A DNA stretch of 48,399 nt from Candidatus Peribacteria bacterium (lineage in GTDB: Bacteria; Patescibacteriota; Gracilibacteria; Peribacterales; Peribacteraceae), in assembly GCA_028286915.1 (NCBI GenBank), contig JAQBQQ010000005.1, positions 1 to 48,399 of the forward strand. Direction: 5' to 3'. The position numbers and the translations under genes were made by a program. The notes beneath the pieces are model-generated. The model was not told the origin of the DNA. It worked only from the letters and a program-made list of their open reading frames with translations, and did no database searches. The stretch's first letter is position 1; each line of letters begins with the position of its first letter. Positions 27,787-33,366 of the stretch are shown in pieces.

Positions 27787-27863
27787 ATAATCTGTATTGT
27801 ACTTTACATTCCGTTCTTTGTGAAATTGATTGAGCAGCTGGAACTATTAATACCTGTACCGCT

Positions 27864-27902
27864 TGGCTGGGAATCGTGGATAATTTTCGAACGTTTGATT
27901 GG
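27864..27902. repeat. R1 repeat, copy 1
   Basis: 39 bp, starting TGGCTGGGAATCGTGG and ending CGAACGTTTGATTGG; two differences from copy 2. On the minus strand it ends with CCCAGCCA, like a tRNA 3' end with CCA. It is preceded by TACCGCTTGGCT, which also occurs in the D-arm region of tRNA-Gln (33349-33360). Confidence 0.85.
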
Positions 27903-27926
27903 TTAAATTTAAAATCATCTCATGCC

Positions 27927-28406
27927 TTAATCATTAACTCCATTTCCCCAATCCTCAGGACGGTTAGGACTTTCTAATACCTCCATAAGCTTTCTATGCC
28001 ATTGTTCTGGAAGTACAGATAACAGTGTTGTCCCTTTTCCGATAGAAGTATTTAAACTAGGTTCAGAAGAACAGATAGCAAAAATCATTTCTCTCCACTT
28101 ATTATCATAATGAAGGCCACACACATGCTGTGCAACTAATGAGATCCATTCTCCATCTACCGGTACTTGTACAAACCCCTGACTCGCTAGCTCCTCTGTG
28201 TCTGGCCTTAGAGATTCTGGCTCTCTTTCTTCTGCCAATAATTTCATTTCTTCAGCACTTAAGTCTAATACTTTTGAGTATTGAGTTGAATGCCTTTCGG
28301 CTATGTTCCACATTTTCTCCTTTTTTGCTTCAATACCAGCAATTCGTTGCCTTAGATGCTTGCGGATAAAAGGCTCTTCAGGCTCTAGTTCGTTTGGATT
28401 GGTCAT
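27927..28406 (-). CDS. Hypothetical protein (159 aa) in R1 unit A
   Basis: Not recognised. Charged helical N-terminus (RKHLRQRIAGIEAKKEKMWN), then an alpha/beta part with VPVDGEWISLVAQHVCGL and a helix EQWHRKLMEVLESPNRPEDW. No membrane segment. It is the only gene between R1 copies 1 and 2 and has its own promoter; the ATG follows the -10 box by six bases, so a leaderless mRNA is expected. Confidence 0.65.
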   Translation of the reverse strand: MTNPNELEPEEPFIRKHLRQRIAGIEAKKEKMWNIAERHSTQYSKVLDLSAEEMKLLAEEREPESLRPDTEELASQGFVQVPVDGEWISLVAQHVCGLHYDNKWREMIFAICSSEPSLNTSIGKGTTLLSVLPEQWHRKLMEVLESPNRPEDWGNGVND

Positions 28407-28412
28407 ATTTGT

Positions 28413-28440
28413 AATATACTACTAATATTTGTTATGTCAA
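28413..28440 (-). promoter_or_regulatory. Promoter of the gene at 27927-28406
   Basis: Minus strand: TTGACA (28440-28435), 16-base spacer, TATATT (28418-28413), then six bases to the ATG. The -35 box starts three bases from R1 copy 2, so the promoter travels with the unit. Confidence 0.8.
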
Positions 28441-28443
28441 GTA

Positions 28444-28482
28444 TGGCTGGGGATCGTGGATGATTTTCGAACGTTTGATTGG
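28444..28482. repeat. R1 repeat, copy 2
   Basis: 39 bp, starting TGGCTGGGGATCGTGG. Taken as reference copy. The first ten bases equal the first ten bases of tRNA-Gln read on the plus strand, and TTCGAAC of the T-loop region is also shared. Confidence 0.88.
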
Positions 28483-28555
28483 CTTAGATTTTTTCCTAAG
28501 ATTACTTGCTTAATAGAAAAGTTGAAAATACGATATTATATAATAAAATGCAAAT

Positions 28556-29248
28556 ATGCTTTCTTCTAAAGAAATTGCCGGTTCAGCTTACAATGAATTA
28601 AAGGATATAGAACATGTTGCAGTCACTGACATTATTCCATCCTTAGGAGTGGACATGGAAATGGAAACAAAAGTAGATATTTATGATCTCCCTGAGGTAT
28701 TACGGGTTATGAGAGCACTGAAAAGCATGAATATTTCTGATACCGCACTTCGCAGCGAGGAGCATCATTTTTTTGCGCATAATGCAGATGAACATCACGC
28801 ACTTATTTTGGTTCAAGGATCATCGGAAGTATGGATTAAGTCAAAACGCGGACAGATGCCTCTACTTACTCCTTCTGATCGTATTCCGGTACTGCTACGT
28901 CAAGAAAAGAAATTGAGGCCCCAAAGCCCGGAGTATTTTCAGGCTTTTCATTCGGTCGTAAACACTCCGTTTATAGGCTCATTCCAAAAAGATTGTCTCG
29001 ATGTTTCTTTTGTCCATAAAGATTTGGTTTTTACATTAACTCTCTCTTTGGCAGAGACAAAAGATGGAAATCAGCTTTTTCAATTTGAACTAGAATTAGA
29101 TGGGCATTTATCGGAGACACCAATGCCCAATCTGCAACAAATACTTTCTGAATTTGAAAGAGTCGCTCGTCATATTTTACCTGTTGAAGCTGCTCGTTTT
29201 ACAACACATCAAAAAATTGAATGGCTACTTTCAATGCAGGCTTCATGA
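28556..29248 (+). CDS. CYTH-like protein (230 aa) in R1 unit B
   Basis: Residues about 33-40 read DMEMETKVDI, an ExExK pattern typical of the first strand of CYTH/triphosphate tunnel enzymes. Further strands include HALILVQGSSEVWIKSKRG (K-x-K) and a late GNQLFQFELELDG (E-x-E). These could line a tunnel that binds triphosphates, but the spacing is not standard and other motifs are weak, so this is tentative. The stop TGA overlaps the ATG of the following phosphatase-like gene (ATGA), implying coupled translation. TATAAT lies 11 bases before the start. Confidence 0.5.
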   Translation: MLSSKEIAGSAYNELKDIEHVAVTDIIPSLGVDMEMETKVDIYDLPEVLRVMRALKSMNISDTALRSEEHHFFAHNADEHHALILVQGSSEVWIKSKRGQMPLLTPSDRIPVLLRQEKKLRPQSPEYFQAFHSVVNTPFIGSFQKDCLDVSFVHKDLVFTLTLSLAETKDGNQLFQFELELDGHLSETPMPNLQQILSEFERVARHILPVEAARFTTHQKIEWLLSMQAS

Positions 29249-29784
29249 TTGATATTTATTTTTTTGCTCATGGCACAACTCTAGAAAATGAGCAGCATCT
29301 TTTATCTGGCTGGAATGGTACAATTTTGTCAGAATTGGGAAAAATGCAAGCTAAAGAATTGGGAATTCATCTTAATCCTGAAATTTTTCCTATGATATAT
29401 TCTTCCGATTTACCTAGAGCATTACAAACGATTGAACTTGCCTGTGGCACATTGGGTGTCGTACATGTTGACTCACGCCTTAGAGAAGTTAATTTTGGAA
29501 CTTTTACGAGCCAGTCTTCATCCCTTGTAGATAAGAATTGGGAACAATATATTAAAAATCCATTTCCAGAGGGGGAATCATACATGGATGTCGAAAGGCG
29601 TATGTATGCATTTTTACTTGATCTTAAAAAGCAAAATTATAAAAAAATAGCCATTGTTGCTCATGAGGGTCCACAGCTCGCACTTGACGTATTGCTTAAT
29701 AACAAAACATGGCAGCAGGCTATGGATGAAAACTGGAGAAATACAGGTAATTGGAAACCTGGATGGAAATATGTATTGAATTAA
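29245..29784 (+). CDS. Histidine-phosphatase-superfamily protein lacking the RHG arginine
   Basis: 179 residues from ATG 29245, which overlaps the previous stop. The superfamily marks are present: (F)AHGTTLENEQHLLSGW at the start, SSDLPRALQTIELA, LREVNFGTF and a second catalytic-type VAHEGPQLALDVLL. The usual LxRHGxT is FFAHGTT: the phosphate-binding Arg is Ala8, while His9 and Gly10 remain. Members are phosphoglycerate mutases or phosphatases. Loss of this Arg usually weakens phosphate binding, so activity is doubtful. It forms a two-gene operon with the CYTH-like gene. Confidence 0.8.
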   Translation: MIDIYFFAHGTTLENEQHLLSGWNGTILSELGKMQAKELGIHLNPEIFPMIYSSDLPRALQTIELACGTLGVVHVDSRLREVNFGTFTSQSSSLVDKNWEQYIKNPFPEGESYMDVERRMYAFLLDLKKQNYKKIAIVAHEGPQLALDVLLNNKTWQQAMDENWRNTGNWKPGWKYVLN

Positions 29785-29814
29785 TTTGGCTTATATAAGC
29801 CAATACATTTACCA

Positions 29815-29853
29815 TGGCTGGGGATTGTGGATGATTTTCGAACGTTTGATTGG
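29815..29853. repeat. R1 repeat, copy 3
   Basis: 39 bp, one difference from copy 2. It directly follows the end of the two-gene unit 28556-29784. Confidence 0.88.
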
Positions 29854-29945
29854 ACTGAAATTATTCAAGAAACAATGAAGATGTTTATTTTCAAATATGT
29901 GCCAAAATATTTGACTGAATAAATAATATATGTTATTAAATAGAT

Positions 29946-32021
29946 ATGTCTCAGCTGGAAAAACCTGATTATAATGGCCCAATAGATGTAGAAGTTGTAG
30001 CTCATGAGCTAGAAGAAGAGATTCGTCAGAAGCAGAATGCCAGGGAAATTGCCGAAAGAATAAGTAATGGTATTTTCATGACAAGGAAAGACGGTTTCAA
30101 AGTTTTAACGAGAATAAGCTTAGCTTTAGGCGATCAGCCGGAAGTGGTAATGACTCTTCTAGAAAAATGTAGTAACAACTGGCCATTTGCCGATTTGAAT
30201 ATTTCTTATGCCTTGCTTAAAGAAGGTCATAAAGAAATTGGTATTTTGTTATATGAAAAATATTTTTCCAATAAAGATTGTAGAGAATTAGATTCCCGAA
30301 CACTGAGACAAGGAGTTAATCTTGCTGAAATGCTTGGAAAATTGGAAGAAGCTAATCAAATGATTGAAATCCTATTAAGCCGTTCTTCTACCAATGAAAT
30401 TGATCATGATCAACTGCTATCAATTGCTTATGATTATGGTAGGACTGGGCGAAGTGAAGATGCTGAATTCCTTTGGCAAAGAATTTTTAAAACAAGAGAT
30501 TGGGATACTTCATTAGATAAAAAATATCGCGATTATCAAAATAAAATGAAAAAGGAAATTGCTAGACAGGAGCATTTGAATGCTTCCAACGAGGTCGATA
30601 TTTCTAAAGATGCGGATATTTACATTGAAAGGGCTAAAGATACTATTCGAAAAAAGGAATGGTCTAAGCTTTTAGATTTTTGTAAAACAACCTTTGAGAT
30701 AGAAAAAAGCCCTAGAGCTTGCGATGCATGGCGTTGCTTTGCTTTTACTTGTTTCCAAGAAGATGAGATTACAACAGGAATTAAAATTTGGGAGGTGATT
30801 CTTGAATATTTTCCAATGCAGGTATTTGCCTTTATGAAACTTTCGGAAAAATTTCCTTTTAAAGGAAAAGATCCCGAAATAGATGTTTTTATAAAGAAAA
30901 CGGAATCACTGTCGGCAAAACTAGCAAGACATCCAGGCAGAAAAAAGGTATCACCAATTAAGCTTAAGAATGATAACCGGCCCAATCCTGAAGCTCTTGA
31001 ACGCTTAATAGATATTGATGGTATAGTTTATTCAATATCAGAACACCTCATGCAAGCAGGACAGCATGTTTCTTTTGGTGAACATGATAAAGCCATCAGA
31101 ATTTGGACAATAATTTTACAGCATGATCAGGGGGCGATGGCTAGTGTAATACGAGGATTTCTTCGGATGAGCCGGTTAATTTCACCTGAAGAATTTATTG
31201 AAAAATTAAAAATTCGAGAGATTTTGCAAGGTCAACCGGATATTGGGAGATTATTTAGTTCAATTGCTGCAAATTTATTCTTAAGAGATCCGGAAACCGC
31301 AGAAAAGATTTCATACCAGCTTAATAATGTCCAACCTGAAAGGCCAGGCAACACTGTTACCTTGTCGGACATTTTAATTAAAAGACGAAAATTTTCAGCA
31401 GCGTACCATATTTGGTTGCCTTTAAAGGAAAGCCATGCCTACGCCTGTGCGCATTGTGCTTCTAAATTAATGACCGTTGGCCAAGAAATTCTGGCAAACA
31501 AATTATTTAAAGAAGTCGCAAAGATTTCTCCCTTAGCTTCCATTAGACATGGCTATGAATCTTTCCAAGATCCTCAAAAGAGTGATAAAGTTCTTGCTTG
31601 TATACAGCCTTTAATTGTTACCGGCGATGAAGAGAAGCTGGAAGAACATCAATTTTTTGCATTGAAACTTTTCATACGACATAATCGTGACCTAGATCGG
31701 ACAAGGTACATTATTCACAAGCTAGTCGAGTCAGGCGCTATTACGCGTGAACAAGCATATCAACTTGGTATTACTCCTCCAATTTTAAGAGATCAAAACG
31801 TGGATCAAAATGATCGAGATAGACAAATAGAAGAATATTTAGCAAAAAATATGCCCACATTAAGAAAGAGTAATTTTTTCTCTACTCTGGAAGAACGGCA
31901 GCCGATTATAGATCCGGGCAGAAAAACAAGCCGTACAGCGCATTCAGTTTTAAGAAAACCTTATAGATCCCATGCGCCTGATACGCATGATCCAAAGCAC
32001 CGTCCAAAAAGAAAAAATTAG
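29946..32021 (+). CDS. Large helical-repeat (TPR-like) protein (691 aa) in R1 unit C
   Basis: No enzyme domain is seen. The sequence is a long series of helix pairs with TPR/Sel1-like spacing (for example GKLEEANQMIEILLSRS, GRSEDAEFLWQRIFKTR, EHDKAIRIWTIILQHDQGAM), ending in a basic Arg/Lys/His tail. No signal peptide. Probably a protein-interaction scaffold. AT-rich, in contrast to the GC-rich genes of the island. It is the only gene between R1 copies 3 and 4, with a possible leaderless start. Confidence 0.7.
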   Translation: MSQLEKPDYNGPIDVEVVAHELEEEIRQKQNAREIAERISNGIFMTRKDGFKVLTRISLALGDQPEVVMTLLEKCSNNWPFADLNISYALLKEGHKEIGILLYEKYFSNKDCRELDSRTLRQGVNLAEMLGKLEEANQMIEILLSRSSTNEIDHDQLLSIAYDYGRTGRSEDAEFLWQRIFKTRDWDTSLDKKYRDYQNKMKKEIARQEHLNASNEVDISKDADIYIERAKDTIRKKEWSKLLDFCKTTFEIEKSPRACDAWRCFAFTCFQEDEITTGIKIWEVILEYFPMQVFAFMKLSEKFPFKGKDPEIDVFIKKTESLSAKLARHPGRKKVSPIKLKNDNRPNPEALERLIDIDGIVYSISEHLMQAGQHVSFGEHDKAIRIWTIILQHDQGAMASVIRGFLRMSRLISPEEFIEKLKIREILQGQPDIGRLFSSIAANLFLRDPETAEKISYQLNNVQPERPGNTVTLSDILIKRRKFSAAYHIWLPLKESHAYACAHCASKLMTVGQEILANKLFKEVAKISPLASIRHGYESFQDPQKSDKVLACIQPLIVTGDEEKLEEHQFFALKLFIRHNRDLDRTRYIIHKLVESGAITREQAYQLGITPPILRDQNVDQNDRDRQIEEYLAKNMPTLRKSNFFSTLEERQPIIDPGRKTSRTAHSVLRKPYRSHAPDTHDPKHRPKRKN

Positions 32022-32065
32022 AATTGTTGTCAATTTTTAGCTTCCATAAGCTATTATTTCAAGCG

Positions 32066-32104
32066 TGGCTGGGGCTGGTGGATGATTTGCGAAGAGTTGA
32101 TTGG
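32066..32104. repeat. R1 repeat, copy 4
   Basis: 39 bp, the most diverged copy (about six differences from copy 2), but with the same length, the same TGGCTGGGG start and TTGATTGG end. Confidence 0.75.
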
Positions 32105-32164
32105 TCTGTGAGTATTGACATATTTTCGAGTTTGCAAAAGATCCTAAGTCTATATTTATAGAAA

Positions 32165-32195
32165 ACCCCTTCACGCTATGAAGCAATGAAGGGGT
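32165..32195 (-). terminator. Minus-strand intrinsic terminator
   Basis: ACCCCTTCA / TGAAGGGGT with a 13-base loop, followed on the minus strand by TTTTC; downstream of the gene at 32211-32417. Confidence 0.8.
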
Positions 32196-32210
32196 CTGAC
32201 CGTGTTTTCC

Positions 32211-32417
32211 CTATTGAGGGAACTCTCGCCGGACTTGCTCGTACGCTTCGTACGGCGTCAGGCCGTTCTGGATCAATCCGTACCACCGGAGAGCATGGGT
32301 CATGTTGTTGGGGTGCCCGTACATCTCGGTGAACTTCATGGTGATCTTCTCGTCTCGATACTCGTCATCCTGTTCGATGCCGAAAAAATCATTGGTGATC
32401 GGCGCTTGATCTGCCAT
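32211..32417 (-). CDS. Small hypothetical protein (68 aa), single-gene unit
   Basis: GAGG nine bases before the ATG at 32417 (MADQAPITNDFFGIEQDDEY) sets the start. Not recognised; acidic, helical, with NNMTHALRWYGLIQNGLTPY and a final EAYEQVRREFPQ. A minus-strand promoter with TTGACA, 17-base spacer and TATTAT lies at about 32490-32462, giving a leader of about 40 bases. A terminator follows the stop. GC-rich codons. Confidence 0.7.
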   Translation of the reverse strand: MADQAPITNDFFGIEQDDEYRDEKITMKFTEMYGHPNNMTHALRWYGLIQNGLTPYEAYEQVRREFPQ

Positions 32418-32519
32418 GGATCTCGTCCTCAATAGCTGAAGTTTGAAAAAACACTTATTTGCATAATAATACTATAATTATATTATGTCAAGTATTGATT
32501 GAACGGACGGGTTGAGAAC

Positions 32520-32552
32520 CAAATTTTGAAGGCGTTAGAGCAAGCGGGTCAC
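32520..32552. repeat. R4 repeat, right copy
   Basis: CAAATTTTGAAGGCGTTAGA followed by GCAAGCGGGTCAC; counterpart of 7744-7776 in the same orientation. Confidence 0.5.
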
Positions 32553-32553
32553 C

Positions 32554-33216
32554 TCAGTTAATGTTGAACACCAAATATTCTCCTTCTCCAATTGCTTCTA
32601 TTTTTCCATCGATAATTTTCAAAGCCATCTGGTCATCCAGTGCGTATATTGGCCCAAGTAATTCCTTCGCATGCTGCTGGAGCACTGTAGTGTTTACATT
32701 CGGAAAATGGGGAGAGTTGAGGTGGGGCCTGAATGAAAACTCTACAAAACCTAATCCTGTCTCATTCGTATATTTTCCAAGATCCTCGTAGTAGAGCTTC
32801 TCGGACTGGCTAAGTGAAATGCTGTTTCCAGTTACCATGCTTCCCGCGCTGATACCCGCATAGATTCTGGTCTTAAGCAGATCCGGGAGTACGTTTGCTA
32901 AACCCGAACGTTGCAGCCAATACATCAAATGAAAAGTATTACCGCCACCAAAGAAAAGAACATCGGCATTCTCCAGTCGTCGTTTCCATATATCCTCACT
33001 TACTGCAGAGATATCAACAATGTCCACATACTTGTAACCCAGCTTATTTACGTTGTACAAATCAGTGATCAGCCAATTTTTATCTCCCTCTTCGACATTC
33101 GCGGCAGTGGGAATAAAGGCAACCACTGACTCAGCTTTCGGCTTAGCAAGTAATTCTTCCAATGCTTTTGCAATGGTCTGATTTGTGATTCCTCCCGATG
33201 TCAAAAGAAATTTCAT
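32554..33216 (-). CDS. Peptidase S51 (dipeptidase E-like) family protein
   Basis: 220 residues with the S51 marks: FFGGGNTFHLMYWL (about 88-101), the nucleophile elbow GISAGSM at 121-127 with Ser123, and a His in RPHLNSPHFP. The family includes alpha-aspartyl dipeptidase and cyanophycinase, with a Ser-His-Glu triad. Cytoplasmic, no signal. Last gene before tRNA-Gln; it may be part of the island or of the core. The substrate is not predictable. Confidence 0.88.
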   Translation of the reverse strand: MKFLLTSGGITNQTIAKALEELLAKPKAESVVAFIPTAANVEEGDKNWLITDLYNVNKLGYKYVDIVDISAVSEDIWKRRLENADVLFFGGGNTFHLMYWLQRSGLANVLPDLLKTRIYAGISAGSMVTGNSISLSQSEKLYYEDLGKYTNETGLGFVEFSFRPHLNSPHFPNVNTTVLQQHAKELLGPIYALDDQMALKIIDGKIEAIGEGEYLVFNIN

Positions 33217-33291
33217 TGTGGATTATCGTAGCAGATCTAATGATTTCTCTGTAATTATTGAGGCAAGCGGGTCTATAAACATGAATTTATC

Positions 33292-33366
33292 TGGCTGGGG
33301 AGCATGGATTCGAACCATGGAATGGAGGCTTCAAAGGCCCCTGCCTTACCGCTTGGCTACTCCCCA
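33292..33366 (-). tRNA. tRNA-Gln(UUG)
   Basis: 75 bases with encoded CCA. Acceptor TGGGGAG/CTCCCCA with discriminator G; D-arm GCC...GGC; anticodon stem GGGGC/GCCTC around loop CTTTGAA, giving anticodon TTG; T-arm ATGG-TTCGAAT-CCAT. The 3' end faces the accessory island. Its last 12 bases recur at 7273-7284, and R1 and R3 imitate its 3' half, so it is the likely anchor of the island. Confidence 0.96.

Follow-up and report, generated by a model that had tools for sequence, protein, structure and literature searches.

The window analysed here is a stretch of 48,399 nucleotides from a Candidatus Peribacteria genome (assembly GCA_028286915.1, contig JAQBQQ010000005.1). Within it an intact tRNA-Gln(ttg) gene, at 33292–33366 on the minus strand (ARAGORN; Rfam RF00005, 63 bits), is followed on its 3′ side by four copies of a 39-bp repeat, R1, each of which closes a small gene unit. 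Sequence searching places the copies at 27864–27902 (copy 1, the outermost), 28444–28482 (copy 2), 29815–29853 (copy 3) and 32066–32104 (copy 4), all on the minus strand, as is the tRNA. Their equal length, orientation and positions had been described in a sequence-only reading of the same DNA, together with the gene content of the intervals; the searches and the layout of the open reading frames (ORFs) confirm both. Three of the copies are within three mismatches of one another, those at 32066 and 28444 differ at 6 of 39 bases, and of the four the copy at 32066 most resembles the sites found in other genomes. Shuffled sequence gave no R1 matches. A search of the complete genome (1.43 Mb in 48 contigs, completeness rating 100%), which the sequence-only reading had proposed and in which up to three mismatches were allowed, returned only these four copies at a single locus, ruling out a scattered intergenic repeat.

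Starting from the tRNA, unit 1 (32066–33291, minus) contains genes for an S51 peptidase (33216–32554) and a 68-residue ORF (32417–32211), and unit 2 (29815–32065) a 691-residue TPR-like protein (29946–32021, plus). Unit 3 (28444–29814) encodes a 230-residue protein (28556–29248, plus) and a histidine phosphatase (29221–29784, plus), and unit 4 (27864–28443, minus) a 159-residue protein of no known family (28406–27927, minus). All four have R1 at their end. The units are compact, their ORFs are intact and their gene orientations mixed. The layout is that of elements that target tRNA genes, with the tRNA intact, the units on its 3′ side and R1 downstream in the same orientation. No integrase or integrase fragment was detected in the four units. 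The unit proteins had no match among the PHROGs and PADLOC models (the histidine phosphatase was scanned with PADLOC only), so that phage or defence cargo is rejected, and two of the cargo proteins had none in plasmids and phages. The 691-residue protein has a relative in one other of 353 genomes of the class, at 32% identity, with neither tRNA nor R1 in its neighbourhood. The sequence GACCCGCTTGC is found on either side of the S51 peptidase gene (33262–33280 and 32540–32560), and motifs related to it bracket the integrase-holding region at two loci of relatives (L124 and L125).

R1 and the 3′ end of the tRNA

The sequence-only reading had proposed that R1 imitates the end of tRNA-Gln, sharing TTCGAA of the T-loop and differing by an insertion of 4–5 bases. 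The T-loop motif is exact in three copies, the copy at 32066 reading TTCGCA instead, and the insertion is present in all four, where its length is exactly 5 bases. The insertion is therefore the difference expected between an attB-type and an attP-type half-site. In the A118-type (LI) integrase, the attP half-site is 25 bp long with the outer zinc-ribbon motif at positions 16–24, and in attB this motif is 5 bp closer to the centre, the inner motif keeping its place (PMC3783163).

Numbering positions outward from the AG of CCCAGCCA, the inner block of R1 matches the tRNA unshifted at 8–10 of 12 positions overall, and at 9–10 of the 12 (positions 1–12) in the three closest window copies. In three window copies, the 9-bp tRNA block GATTCGAAC matches R1 TTTTCGAAC at 7 of 9 bases when shifted by +5 and at no more than 4 of 9 at any other shift. 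The significance of the shift is modest (p = 6e-4 at +5, 0.015 across all shifts from 0 to 10). Between genomes, the conserved part consists only of CCCAGCCA and the 23 bases beside it: sites from five genomes agree at positions 1–23, except 4, 7 and 19, and diverge freely beyond. A conserved block of this size has about the length of one 25-bp attP half-site of the large serine integrases (A118/LI, phiC31 and Bxb1 type), and copy 4 would on this comparison be a P-type half-site plus CCCAGCCA. The bases CCAATCA at the outer R1 end are found in this genome only. The tRNA and R1 show the published displacement between attB and attP, with modest statistics, and the likeness of R1 to the tRNA points to a shared integrase-binding sequence with a 5-bp displacement.

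Sites, right arms and integrases in related genomes

R1-type sites with different cargo in each follow tRNA-Gln in genomes G026, G067, G078, G083 and G089, as the sequence-only reading had anticipated for relatives, and in G070 such a site lies 109 bp past tRNA-Ser(gga). The site follows an S-layer-homology-like protein in G026 and a glyoxalase-like protein in G078 (both names read from the sequence, not from a model match), a 204-residue protein in G067, an integrase element in G089 and a gene-less 104-bp stretch in G083. In a class-wide search, 7 of the 353 genomes have genuine R1-type sites, all in the family Candidatus Peribacteraceae; four further genomes, outside the family, gave matches without the R1 continuation, about the estimated chance number. 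A collection of 84,980 species yielded five Peribacteraceae, Peregrinibacteria or Patescibacteria contigs and three unrelated matches, where by estimate some two would be expected by chance. Viral contigs were rejected, a loose pattern giving a few matches without the R1 continuation and a stricter pattern none.

R1 could instead be an intergenic repeat with a regulatory or structural role, or could result from tandem duplication of the end of the tRNA gene, no site-specific recombinase being involved. Such an origin is suggested by the terminator-like hairpins in some R1 flanks and by genome G002, which has 116-bp tandem units, each starting with 20 bp identical to its tRNA-Gln end. Against it, there are only four copies in the window genome, all at one tRNA, the cargo differs in each genome, an Rfam scan gave a match for the tRNA but none for R1, and R1 is not an exact copy of the tRNA, the 5-bp displacement setting the two apart. 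We consider this explanation very unlikely. The array in G002 (L058, G002:C51, 1637–1888 in tRNA orientation) has three such exact copies (GAATCCATCCTCCCCAGCCA), spaced at 116 bp and without genes between them; either it arose by tandem duplication or it is a minimal array of a different kind.

The DNA at the tRNA side of a unit is its right arm, and several right arms are found in different genomes at a fixed distance directly past the tRNA. That of unit 1 (33262–33291, minus) recurs after tRNA-Gln in eight other loci (p = 5e-5 against random 30-mers of the window); it includes TTTATAGACCCGCTTG, beginning 12 bases past tRNA-Gln. The arm T[TA]ATAGACCC follows the window tRNA-Gln, and one of the eight other loci is the second tRNA-Gln of this genome, which it follows as well. 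Beyond the outermost R1, at 27834–27863 (minus), an arm beginning AGCGGTACAGGTATTAATAG is of the same class as that following the window tRNA-Gln and aligns base for base with the tRNA-Gln arm of G078 (p = 5e-5), and here we propose the start of an older, outer element. Further out, between 4400 and 27800, the window has many small ORFs of no family and, one weak match aside, no protein matching the tRNA-Gln loci of relatives; the whole of this region may be older accreted DNA.

An integrase element of G008, located at tRNA-Gln, has TCAGCCA at its end, and beyond this comes an arm which in G088 directly follows the tRNA; because of this adjacency, we take elements to stack with their junction in CAGCCA. 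In G083, the gene-less 104-bp R1-ended unit is present in identical form at two loci: one copy is directly past tRNA-Gln(ttg), the other downstream of tRNA-Gln(ctg), where it is a later unit. Identity between the loci extends past the unit by 9 nt on the left (CCCCAGCCA) and by 2 nt on the right. No other observation speaks as strongly for the precise movement or copying of an R1-ended unit that lacks an integrase. Two other features of tRNA-Gln loci were seen. Five contigs (G004:C3, G077:C60, G062:C7, G085:C35 and G065:C22) stop 0–2 bases from the 3′ end of tRNA-Gln, as would be expected of downstream DNA that differs between copies or between members of the sampled population. In locus L057 of G029, the tRNA-Gln gene and the pth gene block lie ~5 kb apart, and their orientation towards each other is the reverse of that in the window, which suggests that DNA around the tRNA has been inverted.

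Large serine recombinases (LSRs) are present in 52 of the 70 family genomes surveyed. In 12 of 20 sampled loci they converge on the 3′ end of a tRNA gene (chance ~4e-7, assuming 0.12 tRNA per locus), the tRNAs concerned being those for Ala, Ile, Met, Leu, Arg, Ser, Glu, Gln and Val, and at least 12 LSRs have their PF07508 domain 655–785 bp from the 3′ end of tRNA-Gln. The most informative case is a 6.3-kb element in G089, in which tRNA-Gln, an LSR, cargo and R1 follow one another in that order. Its LSR has 521 residues and, like the known large serine integrases, Resolvase, Recombinase and zinc-ribbon domains (PF00239, PF07508 and PF13408). Members of its clade are found in 5 of the 70 genomes, always abutting tRNA-Gln at its 3′ end, and R1 is present in four of these five genomes (p = 1.8e-4). 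In G089 (L117, G089:C62), the coding sequence for the C-terminal residues (DWLGRRDSNPR...) of the integrase overlaps the tRNA-Gln gene, which is on the other strand; the tRNA sequence therefore doubles as the integrase C-terminus. At three other loci (L066, L124 and L125), the neighbour of the integrase reads by eye like a phage terminase large subunit, which suggests prophages at tRNA-Gln.

The only LSR of the window genome (566 residues; L111, G000:C24, 8964–10664, plus) is convergent with tRNA-Ile(tat), whose 3′ end it overlaps, and belongs to a separate integrative element, the far end of which was not found with the tRNA-end motif. By our own reading of the sequence, the gene adjoining it resembles DUF4238 proteins.

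Single-gene units parted by one short site also resemble integron cassettes, and the genome has one XerC/D-like tyrosine recombinase, judged by length and context, so that R1 might be an attC- or dif-like site of an integron or a Xer/tyrosine-recombinase system. R1 does not, however, fold as a single strand any better than its shuffled versions (z ~0), and no R/L box motifs are seen; the sequence-only reading had likewise seen no classical attC features, and an integron attC is rejected. Most of the genomes have one or two tyrosine recombinases, and in none of the 70 was one found within ~5 kb of tRNA-Gln, in contrast to the LSRs that abut it, and a Xer or tyrosine integrase acting at the tRNA is rejected as well. 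We regard cassettes of this kind as highly improbable.

Probable accretion at tRNA-Gln

The explanation that we think probable, on the evidence of sequence comparison, is that R1 is an attP-type half-site of a serine integrase and that the stretch is a stack of units inserted at tRNA-Gln. The 3′ end of tRNA-Gln would be the chromosomal attB-type half-site for LSRs of the Candidatus Peribacteraceae, and the 3′ half of the window tRNA-Gln the anchor of the stack. Insertion would join the two DNAs at CCCAGCCA, present in both the tRNA and the incoming circle, leaving the tRNA whole and followed by the right arm of the element (P′), with the left arm (P), which is R1, on the far side and ending in its own CCCAGCCA. 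A later insertion at the tRNA would displace the older units outward, giving the order tRNA, P′, cargo, R1, P′, cargo, R1 and so on. The four units in the window would have been inserted by an integrase acting in trans, or would have lost their integrase since. From this arrangement we infer recombination as such, the succession of the insertions, the supply in trans and the crossover dinucleotide, assumed to be the AG of CCCAGCCA.

Several observations weigh against this explanation. The R1-linked LSR clade was not found in the window genome, and the LSR at tRNA-Ile is unrelated to it in detail. No R1 was found in G087, which has an LSR of the clade, on a contig that ends ~3.8 kb further on. 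The anchor in G070 is tRNA-Ser, yet its R1 still ends like tRNA-Gln. The 5-bp shift is weaker in the copy at 32066 and in other genomes (5–6 of 9 bases, tied with a shift of +3 in two cases), and no match could be made between the right arms of units 2–4 and that of the LSR clade. Neither a circle nor an empty site nor a recombination reaction was observed.

The R1-linked integrase being absent from the window genome, the units are relics or depend on a visiting enzyme. If they are relics, four full-sized serine-integrase elements would have inserted serially, each then losing its integrase and most of its genes and leaving R1 as a dead scar, in the manner of accretion of cis-mobilizable elements (CIMEs). 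This sub-case shares the integrase and site of the explanation above and competes only with the mobile cassettes considered next; the likelihoods given to them are not additive. It agrees with the absence of the clade (clade D), with the abundance in the family of integrase-bearing elements at tRNA genes, and with the accretion of decayed elements, which is well described (PMC5704250). The compact units, with their intact ORFs and no detected integrase fragment, speak against it, as does the gene-less unit of G083 at two loci with exact ends, which decay alone would not yield. Decay alone has, in our estimate, a little under an even chance.

The other possibility is that the Peribacteraceae have a working serine-integrase gene-cassette system, in which an integrase acting in trans would capture minimal units bounded by P half-sites and stack them at the 3′ end of tRNA-Gln. 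We put this forward tentatively, as the less likely of the two. The sequence-only proposal of a cassette array outside the integron class, with a site that copies a tRNA end, essentially holds, and LSRs can now be named as its likely recombination system; it is borne out by the different cargo in relatives, by the lack of R1 elsewhere in the genome and by the R1-ended unit at two loci of a relative.

Among known systems, the window stack is best read, by analogy, as a tandem accretion of integrase-less units at tRNA-Gln comparable to the composite islands of the staphylococcal cassette chromosome (SCC) or to CIME accretion. The SCC islands, including pseudo-SCC without ccr, likewise form a stack at the 3′ end of one gene with direct repeats between, and some of their units have no recombinase genes (PMC6243372). 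In the present case, the target is tRNA-Gln instead of orfX/rlmH, the units are of 0.1–2.3 kb with one or two genes, and the lineage is unrelated; neither ccr genes nor an rlmH/orfX target nor any LSR is found with the window units. The ccr enzymes of SCC are serine recombinases. Accretion of CIMEs and integrative and mobilizable elements at tRNA genes also gives integrase-less units that keep their att sites in tandem at the tRNA 3′ end, but the described cases use tyrosine integrases, unlike the probable serine integrase here; the elements that a review of such elements lists at tRNA ends are of the tyrosine type, and serine types are usually inside genes (PMC5704250). The large serine integrases, whose outer motif moves by the same 5 bp (PMC3783163), differ from the present case in that the target here is a tRNA 3′ end kept whole and the window units have no integrase. 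Integron cassette arrays, and clusters of attC sites lacking integron integrases (CALIN), share the small gene units, with a single short site at the end of each, the variable cargo and the fixed anchor; here there is no foldable attC, no integron-type integrase was found (the one tyrosine recombinase looks XerC/D-like by length and context), the anchor is a tRNA and gene orientations are mixed. We found no report of this arrangement in Patescibacteria in the open-licence literature, which does not prove that there is none.

The pair of R1 and tRNA is a natural and readable example of the attB/attP displacement rule, and the analysis names a specific integrase (G089, 521 residues) and site pair that can be tested directly. 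The units are small enough to be called cassettes and, if the cassette system is real, with units down to a gene-less 104 bp, it would do the job of integrons with an unrelated enzyme. This suggests that bacteria with very small genomes could gain genes through a tRNA-anchored landing site fed by serine integrases.

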